Assembly (NCBI GenBank): GCA_035712365.1
Contig: DASTAW010000056.1
Location: 1 to 39,123 of the forward strand
DNA: 39,123 bases
DNA from: Terriglobia bacterium
GTDB taxonomy: Bacteria; Acidobacteriota; Terriglobia; UBA7540
Direction of reading: 5' to 3'
Of the stretch, positions 18,624 to 26,814 are shown one piece after another; within the stretch, counting starts at the first letter, position 1, and each line of letters begins with the position of its first letter. Position numbers and translations under genes: made by a program. The notes under the pieces were generated by a model. That model searched no databases, was not told the DNA's origin, and saw only the letters and a program-made list of their open reading frames with translations.

Positions 18624-20747
18624 TCAGTGCGAAGCGTCCGTTAAGGTGACATCGCTCCGCAACGGGAGGTCTCGGGAAGAAGTTCCTACCAGAATCCGGT
18701 AAGTGCCTGCGCGAGAAACCCAGCGGCGCACTGATGTGTCGTAATACGAAAGTGCGCGAGGCGCGATGGAAAGGCGAACCTGTCTGGTCTCACCCGGTTT
18801 CAAAAACACCTTGTCAAAAGCACACAACTGTCGTGGCGGCTCGCCGTTCCCGGGAGGCTGGCTGATGTAGGCCTCAACCACTTCAGCCCCGGCGCGGCGG
18901 CCCGTGTTGGTGACATCGACCGTCGCGTTAACGACGCCTGCCCCTTTACTGAGGCGAGCGGCCGCGACTTCGAGACGGCTGAGCCGGAAGGTGGTGTACG
19001 ACAAGCCAAAACCGAAGGGAAATAGAGGCTCGGCTCCGGTGGCATCATACCACCGGTAACCGACGTTGAGCTTCTCGCTGTAGACGGACTTTCCGTTGAC
19101 CCCGGGCCATTGCTGCGGAGAACTGGTCGGAACTTTGTCCGCTGTTCGAGGAAAAGTCAGCGGCAGTCTTCCTCCGGGATTAACGTCTCCGAACAGTATT
19201 GCCGCAATGGCATTGCCGTCTTCCTGCCCTGGATACCACGCTTCGATGATGCCGCGAACGCTTTCAACCCAGGGCATCAGCACCGGACCGCCCGTGTTCA
19301 AAACCACAATGGTCTTAGGATTAGCCGCGGCCACAGTTGAGACGAGATTGTCCTGGTTACCTGGCAGCACAAGGTTCGGCCGGTCATGGCCTTCACCCTC
19401 GACGGTACTCACAAACACAATTGCGACCGCGGCAGACTTCGCCGCCCGAGCGGCATCGGCGAGGTCCCTGCCGTCCGAGTAGGTCACCCGGCTGCCCCCG
19501 CCCGCGCGCTTGCGGATGCCTTCCAGCGGACTCACCACATACGGCGCGATGACGGCGGAACTGCCCGTGCCCTCAACCTGCGGCTTATCTCCGCCATCTG
19601 CGCCGATCACGGCAATGGAAGAGGCGCCGGAGAGCGGAAGGATGTCACCCTGGTTCTTCAGCAGGACGGTTCCCTGCTCGGCCGCGCTGCGTGAAAAGAC
19701 GTCGTGCTCCGGGCTTCGAACGTTGGAGTCCCAGTTGCCAGACTGTTGCCGGTCAAACAGGCCGTGCCGGAACATCGTTATCAGGATTCTCCTGACGTGC
19801 TCATTCAGATTCGCCATGTTCACTTGGCCGTTTGTAACGGCTTTTTCAAGCGCCTGTCCATAGTAGCGATCGTCGGGCATTTCCTGGTCCAGGCCTGCAC
19901 TTGCGGAAGCAGCCGTGGAATGAGTGCCGCCCCAGTCGCTCATGACCCAGCCGCCAAAATCGAGTTGATTCTTGAGAAGATCACCCAGCACGTGCGAGTT
20001 CTCACAGGAGTAGACGCCGTTCGTCTTGATGTAGGCGCACATGAAAGTGCCGACACCGCCCGAAACCGCGGCCTGAAATGGCGGCAAATAAATTTCCTGC
20101 AGGGTCCTCTCATCCACAATCGAATCGATATGGAAGCGGTCGCTTTCCTGGTTCATGGTCAGATACATGTTCGCGTTGGCAATGGGCCCCTGGCTCTGGA
20201 TACCCTTGATCTCGGCCGCAGCCATCTGCCCGTTGAAATAGGGATCCTCGCCGTAGGTTTCAAAAGTCCTTCCCCACTCGGGAACGCGAACCACGTCGAT
20301 GGTGGGACCCAGTTCAACATTTGTTCCCTTCCCCCACTGCTCTTTGCCGATGACCTTGCCAAAGGCTTCCAGTAAAGACGTGTCCCAACTGGCGGCAACG
20401 GCAATGGGGGCCGGCAGAAGCGTTACTTCAGTGGCCTTGTTCCCCACACCCGCACGCCCATCGGCGAGCTTCAACGCAGGAATATGGAGCCGCGGGTTCG
20501 CCGGAACATAACCTACATATCCCTTGAACGGATGCTCTTTCCGGTCGATGCCGTGCATCAGGCCGACCTTGTCTTTGAGCGTCATCACATGGATCAGCAG
20601 GTCGGCCCTGCGCTCGGCGGAGAGCGACGGATTCATCCACGGATCGCTGCCTGTCTGTGTCGGCGCGAATGTCGCCGGAACCAATACGGCCATCAGTCCA
20701 AGCGCCACGCCGGCAATCATTAACCTGTAGGGAGCTTTGGCTCTCAT
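18624..20747 (-). CDS. Exported family 3 glycoside hydrolase (beta-glucosidase-like)
   Basis: The 707-residue protein has a signal peptide (LMIAGVALGLMAVLVPATFA), a GH3 N-terminal barrel, a C-terminal sandwich domain and a fibronectin-III-like end (about 600-690). The nucleophile is Asp271 in GGWVMSDWGGTHS. Substrate-site Arg and Asp occur in ALKLADGRAG. The hallmark KH-F-x-x-N-x-Q-E motif is altered: the segment reads ANMYLTMNQES, with Asn-Met in place of Lys-His, a pair that normally contacts the -1 sugar. Beta-glucosidase activity is therefore uncertain and another glycoside may be the substrate. The start ATG 20747 has GAGG four bases upstream, and a promoter candidate lies at 20835-20863. 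Confidence 0.85.
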   Translation of the reverse strand: MRAKAPYRLMIAGVALGLMAVLVPATFAPTQTGSDPWMNPSLSAERRADLLIHVMTLKDKVGLMHGIDRKEHPFKGYVGYVPANPRLHIPALKLADGRAGVGNKATEVTLLPAPIAVAASWDTSLLEAFGKVIGKEQWGKGTNVELGPTIDVVRVPEWGRTFETYGEDPYFNGQMAAAEIKGIQSQGPIANANMYLTMNQESDRFHIDSIVDERTLQEIYLPPFQAAVSGGVGTFMCAYIKTNGVYSCENSHVLGDLLKNQLDFGGWVMSDWGGTHSTAASASAGLDQEMPDDRYYGQALEKAVTNGQVNMANLNEHVRRILITMFRHGLFDRQQSGNWDSNVRSPEHDVFSRSAAEQGTVLLKNQGDILPLSGASSIAVIGADGGDKPQVEGTGSSAVIAPYVVSPLEGIRKRAGGGSRVTYSDGRDLADAARAAKSAAVAIVFVSTVEGEGHDRPNLVLPGNQDNLVSTVAAANPKTIVVLNTGGPVLMPWVESVRGIIEAWYPGQEDGNAIAAILFGDVNPGGRLPLTFPRTADKVPTSSPQQWPGVNGKSVYSEKLNVGYRWYDATGAEPLFPFGFGLSYTTFRLSRLEVAAARLSKGAGVVNATVDVTNTGRRAGAEVVEAYISQPPGNGEPPRQLCAFDKVFLKPGETRQVRLSIAPRALSYYDTSVRRWVSRAGTYRILVGTSSRDLPLRSDVTLTDASH

Positions 20748-21782: not shown

Positions 21783-24041
21783 ATGCGGATTCGCCACAGG
21801 CTCATCATATCCCTGACCATCAGCATTACGCTGGTAGCCTTTGTCTTCGCCTACTTTCAGGTACGTTCCCAAAAGCGTTCACTTCGAAGTGATCTGGAGA
21901 AACGCGCAGCAGTGCTTGCGGAAAGCCTTGTTGACAACGTCCAGCCTTTACTCGCCAGCCATTCCCTCGTCTCTTTGCAGCAGCTTCTGGACCGATTCGA
22001 AAACCGCGAAGCCCTCGACGGAGTTGCGGTTTACGACAGTCACGGAAACAAAATCGCAGTTGCCACAACACTCGAGAACCAAACGGGCGCTGCTCCTTCT
22101 GCGGTCGGCCAGGCACTTTATCGGGTCAAGGGAGTGAACCAGTTCTTCAATTTGAATGGCGTACCCATGCAGGTCTATGCGCTGCCCATTCAAGGGAATG
22201 GGGGCGTGGAAGGTGTGCTGGCGATCTACCACAACACGAGCTTCATTGAGGACCAGTCTTTCCGTCTCTGGCGCGATACATTTCTCCGCCTGCTGGTGGA
22301 AACGCTCCTCATCGCTTTCATCTGCCTGCTGATTATCCGCATCAGCATTCTGGAGCCGGTCACAAAGACCGCCCAGTGGCTGCGTGCGCTGCGGACTGGC
22401 AAGGGTCTTCGGACGGCTTCGTTGCCGGCTGAGGAGATTTTCCAGCCGATCGCGCGCGAGGTAACACAACTGGCCAAAACCCTGGAAGTCGCCCGAACAG
22501 CCGCCGAAGAAGAAGCCCGTTTGCGAGAAATGGGTGACGTCATCTGGACGGCGGAGCGCCTGCGGGTGCATGTGCGAAATTGCTTTCGCGATAAACCGAT
22601 TTTTGCCGTTTCCAACCGCGAGCCGTATATGCACGTGCACGAGAATGGCGGAATCAAGTGCGTGGTGCCGGCCAGCGGTCTGGTCACTTCGCTTGAACCC
22701 ATCCTGCGGGCCTGCGACGGAACATGGCTGGCAGCCGGAGATGGAAACGCCGACCGCGAGACGGCGGATGATAAGAGCCGCCTGCGCGTGCCGCCAGATG
22801 ACCCCCATTACACGTTGCGGAGGGTCTGGCTCAGCAAAGAGGAAGAACAGGGATTCTACCTCGGATTCGCCAACGAAGGCCTCTGGCCGCTCTGCCACAT
22901 CGCTCACACGCGCCCCATCTTCCGCGAGGCGGACTGGAAGCAGTATAAGGCTGTGAACCAGAAGTTTGCCAGGGCCTTGCTGGAGGAACTGGAGGGCACG
23001 CAGGACCCCGCCGTTTTGATCCACGATTATCATTTTGCCTTGCTGCCGCGGATGGTAAAGGAGAAGCGGCCGGATGCCCGGGTCGCCATCTTCTGGCACA
23101 TTCCCTGGCCAAATGCCGAGGCTTTCGGCATCTGCCCCTGGCAGCGAGAATTGCTGGACGGGCTGCTGGGTGCTGATATCGCCGGTTTCCACATTCAGAA
23201 CCATTGCAACAATTTTCTTGAGACGGTTGACCGCGCCCTCGAATGCCGGATTGAATGGGACCGGTTTGCCGTCAACCGGCGTGGACACTTCACGCTGGTC
23301 CGCCCATTTCCGGTAAGCGTCGTCTTCGAAAACGAGACGGCGGACGCGTCAACACTCGCAGGACCTCCCGAGGCTGAAAACCTCCTGAGAGAGCTTGGAG
23401 CGGAAGGCGCCGTGATGGGACTGGGCGTCGATCGCATGGATTACACGAAAGGGATCGTTGAACGTTTCTGGGGCGTCGAAAGGTTCCTCGAAAAATATCC
23501 TGCCTATCAGAAACAGTTCAGCTTTGTCCAGATTGGCGCTCCCAGCCGTACAGACATCCAGCAGTACCGCAACCTGGTGCATGAAATTGAATCGGAGGCC
23601 CACCGCATTAACAATCGTTTCATGCGAGGTGCATGGAAACCCATCATCCTCCTGAAACGGCATCACAGCCACGAGGAGATCGTACGCTACTACAAATCGG
23701 CTGACTTTTGCATGGTGACCTCGCTCCACGACGGCATGAACCTGGTGGCCAAAGAATTTGTCGCCTCGCGCAGTGACGGCCAGGGGGTCCTCATCTTAAG
23801 CCGCTTTACGGGGGCCTGTCGCGAACTGCGAGATGCGCTGGTTGTCAATCCCTACGATACGGAGCAACTGGCGGAAGCCATTAAATTCGCCGTGTCGATG
23901 GACCTCGAAGAGAAAAGGTTGCGGATGCAGCGCATGCGACGCGTAGTCCGTGAGCATAACACCTATCGCTGGGCGGCCAGCCTGGTCCGCGAGCTCTCGG
24001 AAGTGCGGCTGGAAAAGCCCGAGCCGGTAAGAGTACGGTAG
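21783..24041 (+). CDS. otsA: Membrane-sensor / trehalose-6-phosphate synthase fusion
   Basis: In this 752-residue protein, residues about 270-745 are a GT20 trehalose-6-phosphate synthase, which makes trehalose-6-P from a nucleotide-glucose and glucose-6-P. Visible are the N-terminal loop VSNREPY with Arg279, HDYH, FWHIPWPNAE, GVDRMDYTKG (Arg551, Lys556) and LHDGMNLVAKEF (Asp650, Glu658). Ahead lies a module not found in E. coli OtsA. It comprises TM1 (8-25), an extracytoplasmic domain of about 140 residues, TM2 (167-188), and a HAMP-like amphipathic/coiled segment (188-250). The layout copies chemoreceptors and histidine kinases, so a periplasmic signal may control the synthase. No strong SD precedes ATG 21783. 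The phosphatase gene follows 76 bases later. Confidence 0.9.
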   Translation: MRIRHRLIISLTISITLVAFVFAYFQVRSQKRSLRSDLEKRAAVLAESLVDNVQPLLASHSLVSLQQLLDRFENREALDGVAVYDSHGNKIAVATTLENQTGAAPSAVGQALYRVKGVNQFFNLNGVPMQVYALPIQGNGGVEGVLAIYHNTSFIEDQSFRLWRDTFLRLLVETLLIAFICLLIIRISILEPVTKTAQWLRALRTGKGLRTASLPAEEIFQPIAREVTQLAKTLEVARTAAEEEARLREMGDVIWTAERLRVHVRNCFRDKPIFAVSNREPYMHVHENGGIKCVVPASGLVTSLEPILRACDGTWLAAGDGNADRETADDKSRLRVPPDDPHYTLRRVWLSKEEEQGFYLGFANEGLWPLCHIAHTRPIFREADWKQYKAVNQKFARALLEELEGTQDPAVLIHDYHFALLPRMVKEKRPDARVAIFWHIPWPNAEAFGICPWQRELLDGLLGADIAGFHIQNHCNNFLETVDRALECRIEWDRFAVNRRGHFTLVRPFPVSVVFENETADASTLAGPPEAENLLRELGAEGAVMGLGVDRMDYTKGIVERFWGVERFLEKYPAYQKQFSFVQIGAPSRTDIQQYRNLVHEIESEAHRINNRFMRGAWKPIILLKRHHSHEEIVRYYKSADFCMVTSLHDGMNLVAKEFVASRSDGQGVLILSRFTGACRELRDALVVNPYDTEQLAEAIKFAVSMDLEEKRLRMQRMRRVVREHNTYRWAASLVRELSEVRLEKPEPVRVR

Positions 24042-24117
24042 CTCCAGGAACAGCTCATCTCTTCAAGAGAAATGTCGTAAGACCTTTCGCGTGGAACGCT
24101 GGCCCAACCCGGGAACG

Positions 24118-24969
24118 ATGACAAAAATCAGACAGCCCGGCCGCCGTTCACCCAGGTCGAAACTGCTGACAAACTCCCCCCAGGCACCGCAGGCCCGCAG
24201 AAGCCAGAAGCCACCATACTTGTTCGATTGCTGGGAACTCGTGCGCCGCCGAGTCCGGGTGGCGAAGCATGTCGTTGTGTTTCTCGATTTCGACGGCACT
24301 CTGGTGCGATTGCGCCATACGCCCGGGGAGGTGTTCCTTGGCGGGCCCGCCCGGCGCGTGCTGCGAAAATTGGCCCGCCACAGGAAGATCACTCTGTGTT
24401 TCATCAGCGGGCGGCAACTCGATGACTTGCAGCTCCGGGCGCCGGTGGAAGGCGCCATCTATTTCGGGCTGCACGGCTGGGAGCGAAGCAACGGAACCCC
24501 CCCCGACCTGCCCGGCACACGCCAGGTCCGGCAGGCCATGAAATGGGTCCAGCAGCAGGTCCGCGGCATTCCGGGAATTAAAGTGGAGGACAAGGGCATC
24601 TGTTTTGGCGTTCACTACCGGGCCGCCCGCAAGCCTGCGGTGCAGAAAACCTACGCCATTGTCACAGCAGCGCTGACCCGCCTGGGCCCCGGATTTGGCC
24701 TGTTGGCAGGGAAAAAGATCTGGGAAATTTATCCAATTGACATGGGAAACAAAGGAAAAGCTGCCGAAGACCTGCTTCAGAAGCTTCCGGGCCGCAAGCT
24801 GGTGATCTACGCCGGAGATGACACCACGGATGAAACAGCATTTGCGTTGCTGCAAGATGGCGTCACCATTCGGGTGGGAAAGTTCCGGGAAACGAAGGCG
24901 AATTTTTATCTCAAGGGCCCGGCGGAGGTCCTGATGGCCCTCAAGAGACTGGAAGAGAGTCTTGCTTAA
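24118..24969 (+). CDS. otsB: Trehalose-6-phosphate phosphatase (HAD)
   Basis: This removes the phosphate from trehalose-6-P and completes trehalose synthesis. From ATG 24118 the product is 283 residues. After a basic N-terminal stretch of about 60 residues come the HAD motifs: FLDFDGTL with the nucleophile Asp, FISGRQ, the Lys region GNKGKAAEDLL, and the metal-binding YAGDDTTDE. These and FGLHGWE mark the OtsB family. A GTG at 24091 would add nine residues. It follows the sensor-synthase gene on the same strand, so the two pathway enzymes are co-expressed. It converges on eda, with 38 bases between the stops and no visible terminator. Confidence 0.92.
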   Translation: MTKIRQPGRRSPRSKLLTNSPQAPQARRSQKPPYLFDCWELVRRRVRVAKHVVVFLDFDGTLVRLRHTPGEVFLGGPARRVLRKLARHRKITLCFISGRQLDDLQLRAPVEGAIYFGLHGWERSNGTPPDLPGTRQVRQAMKWVQQQVRGIPGIKVEDKGICFGVHYRAARKPAVQKTYAIVTAALTRLGPGFGLLAGKKIWEIYPIDMGNKGKAAEDLLQKLPGRKLVIYAGDDTTDETAFALLQDGVTIRVGKFRETKANFYLKGPAEVLMALKRLEESLA

Positions 24970-25007: not shown

Positions 25008-25673
25008 TTATTTCTGCAGCCCAGCCCTGGCAGTGCGGACGGCCTCCAGGAATTTGCGGGCATTCGCGGTGATAATTTCCGTTTTCCCTTCCTCGAGGGC
25101 CTTGCGTGACACGAGTTCTCCGCCGACGGCCACCGCGGCCGCCCCGGCGCGGATGTAATCCGGCGTAGTTTCCAGATCAACGCCGCCGGTCGGAACAAAG
25201 TCAATCTGCGGGAGCGGGCCTCGCAGCGACCTGAGATAATTCGGTCCGCCAACCGGACCACAGGGAAACACTTTCACCATGTCCGCCCCGGCCTGCCACG
25301 CCGTCACAATTTCCGTCGGCGTCAGGGCGCCGGGAATGCACGCCTTGCTGTATCGACGCGAAGTCTCAATAACTTTGAGGTCAAGACAAGGAGTCACGAT
25401 AAATTCGGCGCCGGCCAGCAACGCAGCGCGGCACGTTTCCGAATCCAGGACCGTGCCGGCTCCCAGCAATACGCTTTCTCCAAACTGCTCAACCACCTGC
25501 TCCATCACGCGAAGGGCATTCGGCACGCCCATCGTGATCTCCACAACCGGAACGCCTCCGGCGACAACCGCCTCGACCGTCTTGAAAGCGTCGTTCGGAT
25601 TCGACACGCGGACAATGGGAACAACCCCCACTTCTCGCAGCCGGTTTATCACCTTCTCTCTGCACCAGGGCAT
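25008..25673 (-). CDS. eda: 2-dehydro-3-deoxy-phosphogluconate (KDPG/KHG) aldolase
   Basis: This class-I aldolase cleaves KDPG to pyruvate and glyceraldehyde-3-phosphate. The 221-residue length fits. The catalytic Glu is in VVEITMG, the substrate Thr in LGAGTVL, and the Schiff-base Lys in MVKVFPCGPVGG; VPTGGVD binds phosphate. I start at ATG 25673 (MPWCREKVINRL) with GAGAGGA about eight bases upstream. A start at 25718 would add 15 residues foreign to the family. The KDG kinase lies 112 bases upstream on the same strand and supplies its substrate. Confidence 0.93.
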   Translation of the reverse strand: MPWCREKVINRLREVGVVPIVRVSNPNDAFKTVEAVVAGGVPVVEITMGVPNALRVMEQVVEQFGESVLLGAGTVLDSETCRAALLAGAEFIVTPCLDLKVIETSRRYSKACIPGALTPTEIVTAWQAGADMVKVFPCGPVGGPNYLRSLRGPLPQIDFVPTGGVDLETTPDYIRAGAAAVAVGGELVSRKALEEGKTEIITANARKFLEAVRTARAGLQK

Positions 25674-25785
25674 GGCTGAATCCTCTCGCTGGAATCTGCG
25701 CAAGGCGGTTGCCTGCAAGGGGCCGATTGCAGGAAATAATCCTGCTTACGCCGGCAGGCAGGGCTGAACCCCGCGCCTCGAGTTA

Positions 25786-26814
25786 CTAACGGGCCACGCG
25801 CAGGCTCGCGCCCTTCATTAATTTTTCCACTTCGTCCAGTGTCGCCCAGTTAAAGTCACCGGGAATGGTCTGCTTGAGCGCGCTAAACGCATTCCCATAA
25901 CGCACAGCGGCTTCGTAAGACTTCTTCACAAGATACCCATAGACGAATCCAGCGCTGAATGAATCGCCGCCGCCGACGCGGTCCACAATCTCAAGGTCGT
26001 ACTTAACGTCTTCATAAAACTTGCCATCGGCGTACGCGATGGCCGACCACGTATTTCGCCATACCAGCGGATTTTCTCGCAAGGTGATGGCCACCGCCTT
26101 GAACTTGAATTTCTCCTGAAGGCGCTGGGCCACTTCCTCGTAGCTGCCCGCGGAAATCTCTTTGAATGCCTGATCGTCGGCCGCACCCGATGCCTTGATC
26201 TTGAAAACCACGCCGGTATCTTCTTCCGTCGTAATCAGGACATCGACCAATTCCATCAGCGGCTCCTGCACGTCTCGCGCTTTTTCCGGTGTCCACAGCT
26301 TTCCCCGATAGTTAAGATCATAGCTGACGGTAACGCCCGCGCGCCTGGCGGCTTCCAGACCTTCACGCATGACGGCCGCCGCGGAACCGCTCAACGCTGG
26401 AGTAATACCGCTGGTGTGAAACCATTTTGCGCCCGCAAACACACTCCTCCAGTCCACCTCGCCGGGCTCGATAGCGGAAATGGCCGAATACGAGCGATCA
26501 TACAGAACGGAACTCGGCCGCGGCGCGGCGCCAAATTCCACAAAGTAGAGGCCGAGCCGGCCGCCTTCCGCCCACACGATTTGCGAGGTATCAACGCCCG
26601 CCTGCCGCACCCGGTTCTCCAGCAGTCGCGCCAGAGGATTCCGGGGCAGCCGGGAAACCCAGGTGCTCGTTAGCCCCAGACGGCTCACGCCCACCGCTAC
26701 ATTCAGCTCGCCGCCGCCGACCTGGACGTCCAGAGAATTTGTCTGCTCCAGCCGCTGAAAGTGTGGAGGCGCAAGCCGAATCATGGCTTCGCCAAAAGTT
26801 ACAACATCCGCCAT
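25786..26814 (-). CDS. kdgK: 2-keto-3-deoxygluconate kinase (PfkB family)
   Basis: This phosphorylates 2-keto-3-deoxygluconate, from pectin, alginate or glucuronate breakdown, to KDPG for the next gene product. The 342-residue protein shows the PfkB opening VVTFGEAMIRLAP, the sugar-binding GGGELNVAVG, FHTSGITPAL, TEEDTGVVF, and the C-terminal ATP/catalytic motif RVGGGDSFSAGF with the base Asp. GGAGG nine bases before ATG 26814 fixes the start. Upstream, toward the divergent trp operon, are a promoter candidate and two short inverted repeats that could bind a regulator. Confidence 0.92.
   Translation of the reverse strand: MADVVTFGEAMIRLAPPHFQRLEQTNSLDVQVGGGELNVAVGVSRLGLTSTWVSRLPRNPLARLLENRVRQAGVDTSQIVWAEGGRLGLYFVEFGAAPRPSSVLYDRSYSAISAIEPGEVDWRSVFAGAKWFHTSGITPALSGSAAAVMREGLEAARRAGVTVSYDLNYRGKLWTPEKARDVQEPLMELVDVLITTEEDTGVVFKIKASGAADDQAFKEISAGSYEEVAQRLQEKFKFKAVAITLRENPLVWRNTWSAIAYADGKFYEDVKYDLEIVDRVGGGDSFSAGFVYGYLVKKSYEAAVRYGNAFSALKQTIPGDFNWATLDEVEKLMKGASLRVAR

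Follow-up and report, generated by a model that had tools for sequence, protein, structure and literature searches.

The gene at positions 21783-24041 of the window, by which we mean the whole stretch of 39,123 nucleotides analysed here, appears to encode a transmembrane receptor whose output is a trehalose-6-phosphate synthase. A receptor-type TM-Cache-TM-HAMP module fused to a GT20 domain with intact active-site residues is supported by profile comparison and predicted structures. As far as sequence comparison goes, the earlier observation of such a fusion, made from the letters of this DNA alone, is right and larger than that sequence-only reading assumed, the protein being a conserved receptor-synthase of multiple phyla. 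We assign a probability of about 0.6 to its acting as a one-protein receptor-enzyme, in which the receptor half would gate the synthase. That it represents an ancient, multi-phylum class of transmembrane receptors with a biosynthetic enzyme as direct output, gated through HAMP without kinases, second messengers or transcription, has in our judgement a somewhat better than even chance of being correct.

Cache/HAMP receptors drive kinases, cyclases and chemotaxis. If the proposed reading is true, receptor outputs extend to metabolism itself, via a bulk biosynthetic glycosyltransferase. The system would also be a simple one, with one protein, two substrates and one product, and transmembrane signalling would be readable as an enzyme rate. 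It bears on how bacteria could produce an osmoprotectant fast without transcription.

Organization of the gene and its protein

The open reading frame has no internal stop, and its features, all on the + strand, are as follows.

21783..24041 (+): sensor-type trehalose-6-phosphate synthase, 752 amino acids, ATG start; Met at this place in 86% of the 99 rows counted
21798..21857 (+): TM1, about residues 6-25 (limits set by eye); the translation is hydrophobic here, both models have a helix at 2-58, and relatives have a TM segment in the same position
21867..22238 (+): single-Cache-like domain, predicted periplasmic, residues 29-152; sCache_3_2 below cut-off, fold match to WalK 4ywz
22278..22340 (+): TM2, about residues 166-186, bounds by eye from the translation; helix 153-205, constant N151-R186 distance
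22341..22496 (+): divergent HAMP domain, residues 187-238; hhalign match of residues 183-252 to six HAMPs from this genome
22497..22544 (+): linker helix, consensus AAExEARLR, residues 239-254; 47% mean pairwise identity in subtype A, near-constant A237-W255 distance
22545..22598 (+): helix before GT20 strand 1, starting W-T-x-E-R-L, residues 255-272; W255 and L260 invariant in 103 rows
22599..24002 (+): GT20 trehalose-6-phosphate synthase domain, residues 273-740; PF00982 at 393 bits, Z 42.6 to 1gz5, active-site residues kept
24091..24969 (+): otsB, trehalose-6-phosphate phosphatase; TIGR00685 at 125.4 bits (cut-off 68.05), coordinates counted from the first GTG, so that the actual start may be internal

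The order that had been read from the sequence (TM1, outside domain, TM2, HAMP-like segment and complete GT20 domain) is borne out by Pfam, profile comparison, AlphaFold2 and active-site alignment, and the otsB gene noted downstream is confirmed. The Cache domain is predicted to be periplasmic from the two hydrophobic segments. The W..L helix before GT20 also occurs in two sensor-less relatives (L041 and L042). A promoter and terminator scan gave sites no more frequently than in shuffled sequences. By eye, the neighbours at 18624-20747 (-) and 25008-26814 (-) resemble a GH3 glucosidase, a KDPG-type aldolase and a PfkB-type sugar kinase.

The sensor half

In a domain search of the N-terminus, Pfam sCache_3_2 matches residues 30-148, with 20.3 bits for the N-terminus alone and 17.7 bits for the whole protein, neither reaching the cut-off of 28.4, and Pfam HAMP (PF00672) is silent on the window protein and matches 3 of 98 relatives. 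Among the N-termini of these 98 relatives, the Pfam matches at E 0.01 or better are to sCache_3_2 (21), SMP_2 (20), dCache_1 (9) and dCache_3 (7). Since Pfam alone misses the HAMP domain and leaves the Cache domain below threshold, structure and profile comparison were used.

Two AlphaFold2 models, both monomers, were built, one of residues 1-282 (98 rows, mean pLDDT 86) and one of the full-length protein (29 rows, pLDDT 82.9). The N-terminus was modelled and searched alone because all 50 rows shown from the full-length fold search align within residues 247-746. The models have a helix at 2-58 that includes TM1, an alpha/beta domain, a continuous helix at 153-205 comprising TM2 and AS1, a connector at 206-217, a helix at 218-250 comprising AS2 and the linker, and a short helix at 257-268, followed by GT20 strand 1. 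Block means of confidence over residues 181-250 are 49-59 in the full-length model and 65-87 in the N-terminal one.

Foldseek places full-length WalK (9a5d, itself an integrative model) at the top for residues 1-282, with E 5.7e-9. The WalK extracellular crystal structure 4ywz gives Z 15.2 and 2.6 Å over 136 residues, the sensor domains of CitA and DctB give Z 14.4-14.7 against the N-terminal model, and that of KinD is also in the Z 14-15 range. A Cache fold is thus modelled between the two TMs. By sequence, the comparison of the N-terminal profile with solved structures is weak, a WalK-type kinase coming first at E 0.0014 and HAMP structures aligning at 188-237 with E 0.35 (2y20) and worse.

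Cache positions with at least 60% conservation in the family are mainly hydrophobic or Gly/Pro (G80, P135, G144). The few polar ones are R41, S48, Y84 and D151, the last being N in the window protein, and R71 and R75 are additionally conserved in a 38-row Acidobacteriota set. This conservation pattern seems neither to show nor to exclude a ligand pocket.

A divergent HAMP domain

The evidence for HAMP comes from comparison with the HAMP domains of the same genome. In hhalign, residues 183-252 of the subtype A profile match six of them with a probability of 94.4 and a score of 38.5, the six being half of the twelve HAMP places in the genome, as the search pattern missed the other six. Over 100 column shuffles the score is at most 15.2 and the probability at most 3, and three other segments of the N-terminus stay below 1%. 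The N-terminal profile also matches three other proteins of the genome, through profile positions 164-236, 15-235 and 156-249, each at a HAMP hit. The layout AS1-connector-AS2 (helices 153-205 and 218-250) together with homology to HAMPs by hhalign is found for subtype A only. The sequence-only reading had made its case depend on a HAMP-like fold in structure prediction, and the predicted layout is HAMP-like. For the 11 rows of subtype B, HAMP is undetectable at an hhalign probability of 0.29%, and our claim is therefore restricted to subtype A.

A related module appears with another output in the phylum of the window. Residues 2-260 align with three proteins (L037-L039) at E 3.6e-14 to 2.2e-11, and these continue into histidine-kinase sequence, not GT20; L037, the one of the three that was scanned with Pfam, contains HAMP, HisKA and HATPase.

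Spacing and selection

Distances between conserved residues were read from a MAFFT alignment for 87 rows of subtype A; L013, L061, L115, L116 and L123 and the 11 rows of subtype B are outside this set. The distances N151-R186, R186-G206 and P222-A237 are constant in 87/87 rows. The linker, A237-W255, is unchanged in 78 rows and one residue longer in the other 9, and W255-N278 keeps its length in 84. Only 44 rows have the HAMP connector, G206-P222, at the same length, and each of three Cache stretches is constant in 72-74. Such a pattern would be expected of a signalling rod and not of a loose anchor, the anchor side of this comparison being an expectation and not a measured set. Subtype B linkers are shorter by 5-8 residues.

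In seven close pairs, dN/dS is below 1 in every scorable segment. With six scorable pairs for each, the values are 0.05-0.59 for Cache, 0-0.09 for the linker and 0.04-0.11 for GT20, some of the underlying dS values being close to saturation, and Cache has the highest ratio in 4 of the 6 pairs where it is scorable. These ratios suggest that the outside part is mostly faster-evolving yet constrained, and that the linker evolves about like the enzyme. One pair (L016/L017) has very low synonymous divergence over TM2, HAMP and linker and is otherwise diverged, as after recombination.

These data bear on the alternative that the N-terminal module is a receptor-derived membrane anchor only, with a constitutively active synthase and no transmission. 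The faster evolution of Cache would suit an anchor, as would the unrecognisable HAMP and variable linker of subtype B and the four relatives (L013, L115, L116 and L123) in which Cache is absent and at least one TM is kept. An anchor should, however, tolerate changes in length, and the TM2, AS1 and AS2 stretches have none in any subtype A row, while the linker is nearly fixed and has a dN/dS about that of the enzyme; subtype A also keeps its homology to HAMPs. We consider the anchor unlikely, albeit to be taken seriously. Because the four Cache-less rows keep HAMP and linker as well as GT20, the membrane part may serve a separate function.

The synthase domain and its product

The GT20 part is that of a trehalose-6-phosphate synthase by fold and active site. 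PF00982 matches residues 275-739 (cut-off 32.5 bits), and structural comparison with OtsA and Tps1 gives Z 36-44. Eleven positions of E. coli OtsA, numbered without Met1, which we take to be those of the active site (R9, G22, Y76, W85, D130, H154, R262, K267, R300, D361 and E369), are all identical between the E. coli K-12 enzyme and the window protein and are kept in 101-103 of 103 family rows. L365, a further such position, is also kept; the label W40 was set aside, as it fits no Trp in the E. coli sequence. The residues that are presumably equivalent to the OtsA contacts with glucose-6-phosphate are present in 103 (R279), 102 (Y359), 101 (W368) and 102 (R589) of the 103 rows.

The NCBIfam OtsA equivalog model TIGR02400 gives 418.9 bits against a cut-off of 564.85, and because this cut-off is missed we file the protein as a GT20 synthase and not as OtsA by the curated rule. 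Identity as a glucosylglycerol-phosphate synthase was considered and rejected, that model scoring 313.5 bits against 418.9 for OtsA.

The window locus is the sole PF00982 match in its 4.67 Mb genome. TreY and TreS are encoded there as well, each scoring over cut-off. Nine of 12 other carriers likewise have one match only in a protein search. Strict same-strand adjacency of otsB is seen at 61 of 109 testable loci (49/94 in subtype A and 12/15 in subtype B), and at 11 of the remaining 48 an otsB-like ORF lies at another place in the DNA fetched. At L046:6325-8503, the sensor-synthase is followed by DUF5752 and TreT-like genes without otsB, with similar-looking ORFs in L051, L053 and L080. In the Daviesbacteria- and Levyibacteriota-titled loci (L097:6154-7293 and L114:6209-7345), a GT4 gene follows the synthase in place of otsB. 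A HAD (Hydrolase_3) gene adjoins in L056 and L008.

The earlier statement that the whole output is trehalose thus holds up insofar as otsB adjoins the window gene, but it is too strong for the family, given these neighbourhoods, and for the window's own genome with its TreY and TreS. The product seems most secure for members beside otsB, the window's gene included. A receptor-controlled GT20 that uses another acceptor in some members, with a lineage-dependent output, would account for the missed OtsA cut-off, for the partial otsB adjacency and for the TreT-like, DUF5752 and GT4 neighbours. It is nevertheless improbable in view of the near-invariant glucose-6-phosphate contacts, the better score of the OtsA model than of the glucosylglycerol-phosphate one, and the otsB gene that adjoins the window gene.

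Distribution and history

The full-length layout recurs at about 40-60% identity, and because the same layout recurs we take it to be more than chance. Of the 297 genomes sampled in the window's phylum, 106 match, and the architecture is present in 30, the window's included; this number comprises 25 genomes whose match starts no later than residue 21 and reaches at least residue 717, and 5 (G005, G169, G192, G273 and G295) whose match is shorter but which have an ORF with the same two-TM N-terminus. Samples of other phyla were each centred on a known carrier genome, with hits judged by match range and 14 loci read. They give 25/297 for the Deltaproteobacteria-titled centre (one with an internal stop), 4/247 for Niastella, 15/119 for the Elusimicrobia-titled centre and 6/192 for the Nomurabacteria-titled one.

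From a scan of titled genomes, the best 80 of at least 586 loci were taken. Hydropathy shows two TMs flanking a Cache-sized stretch before GT20 in 74 of these 80, the exceptions being L061, L087, L096, L115, L116 and L123. Titles among the best 80 include Acidobacteria, Elusimicrobia, Omnitrophota, Nitrospirae, Methylomirabilis, Rokuibacteriota, Verrucomicrobia, Deltaproteobacteria, Gemmatimonadetes, Edwardsbacteria, Bacteroidales, Niastella and several Patescibacteria. The relatives fetched did not include an intact case of residues 1-250 as a separate gene, which the earlier reading had named as evidence against it. In one genome (G074, L021) the synthase half is out of frame with the sensor half, either the gene being broken or the assembly wrong.

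An assembly artefact or chance joining of genes might be suspected, as the titled carriers are mostly MAGs and L021 is frame-broken. Dozens of full-length copies in many genomes speak against it; one of these genomes has a record titled as a strain, Niastella soli MAH-29 (L102), and another is a MAG whose chromosome is complete (L090). Rows from one phylum also often cluster on the tree. We regard this explanation as having a negligible chance and reject both chance joining and misassembly on the recurrence across genomes.

The alignment used for the family (A2) is made up of the window protein, 76 of the 80 loci of the titled scan (without L074, L087, L092 and L096) and 26 loci from other searches. 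Fused loci left out of it are L010, L019, L020, L021, L025, L030, L031 and L035; the reasons were a contig edge, an uncertain start, near-identity to another copy or a broken frame. The rows are partly non-independent: L006 and L071 are identical in GT20, L010 and L086 are possibly from the same genome, and some genomes are in both collections.

In a quick GT20 tree, rooted at the midpoint, every fused row (88 of subtype A, 11 of subtype B and 4 without Cache) is in one starred set of 105 rows. The set also contains two sensor-less rows: L043 falls within subtype B, and L044 sits next to it on a long branch and is thus unsure in placement. Subtype A does not form a single clade (at least 4 changes forced), and the four Cache-less rows are scattered (at least 3 changes forced). 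The tree fits one old fusion with later losses, with the caveat of its midpoint root and the divided subtype A.

Proposed signalling mechanism

Cache-HAMP receptors are usually homodimers, and we presume that the protein modelled here as a monomer would be one as well. TM2 would move in response to a change in the membrane or at the outside domain, and HAMP would convert this movement into rotation or re-packing of the linker helix, whose own movement would open or close the active site. The last step is proposed because only a few residues separate the end of the linker helix from N278-R279 and the G299 loop, which we take to be equivalents of the OtsA residues that bind the acceptor phosphate and close over the donor. 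An outside or membrane signal could in this way set the output of trehalose-6-phosphate quickly, without a kinase or transcription, and the adjoining OtsB would then take off the phosphate. Candidate signals are osmolarity or membrane state, or a small ligand, possibly specific to the lineage; the label of osmosensor would be one option among several.

HAMP coupling is in principle symmetrical, and the signal might instead be reversed or run both ways, with occupancy of the GT20 site setting the membrane module, which would signal to a partner. The active-site residues of GT20 are kept, however, and a common partner gene was not noticed in a non-systematic look at neighbour ORFs, and we judge such a flow very improbable.

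Relation to known systems

The receptor-enzyme proposed here combines features that are known separately. With the OtsA proteins of E. coli and M. thermoresistibile it shares the GT20 domain (30-35% identity, Z 42.6-43.6), the active-site residues and the otsB neighbour. E. coli OtsA, however, has 474 residues and starts at the GT20 domain, whereas the window protein is extended at the N-terminus by about 270 residues that contain two TMs, Cache and HAMP. With WalK (YycG) and other Cache-HAMP kinases it shares the order TM1-single Cache-TM2-HAMP, WalK being the best structural match over residues 1-282. The NCBIfam WalK model matches the N-terminus of the window protein at 2.4e-6, although its score of 26.4 bits is below the cut-off of 725. 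The output of WalK-type kinases is HisKA/HATPase and not a glycosyltransferase, and the HAMP signature of the window protein is degenerate.

One-chain receptors that handle second messengers likewise have an outside sensor and an enzyme in the same chain, and in many of them HAMP lies between the two; the product here would be the precursor of a bulk metabolite. A full-text literature search, with most subscription papers outside its reach, showed no published description of a Cache/HAMP-TPS fusion. In a survey of Cache domains (PMC4822843), the output domains of Cache architectures are described as the known signal-transduction ones, SMP_2 apart. The Cache models described there were built from proteins with signal-transduction output, a procedure that would not favour the detection of biosynthetic output. 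PMC2700814 mentions that GSU2337 of Geobacter sulfurreducens contains 'a domain' like the TPS of M. tuberculosis, and this protein may be a candidate member of the sensor-synthase family.

A membrane module at the N-terminus of GT20 also occurs in Na_H_Exchanger-GT20 fusions (L138-L144 and L148), although here it is a multi-TM exchanger and not a Cache receptor, and these proteins are outside the 105-row tree set. The existence of these separate fusions suggests more than one origin of a link between trehalose synthesis and the membrane. A limited literature search found no published account of an exchanger-trehalose synthase fusion. The fusions come from eight genomes of the window's phylum (e.g. 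G175 and G151), with multi-TM N-termini in frame with GT20, and comprise all eight ORFs of at least 919 amino acids among the eleven regions fetched. Pfam Na_H_Exchanger is above cut-off in 3/3 of those scanned, and NCBIfam CPA2 matches weakly in one of two.
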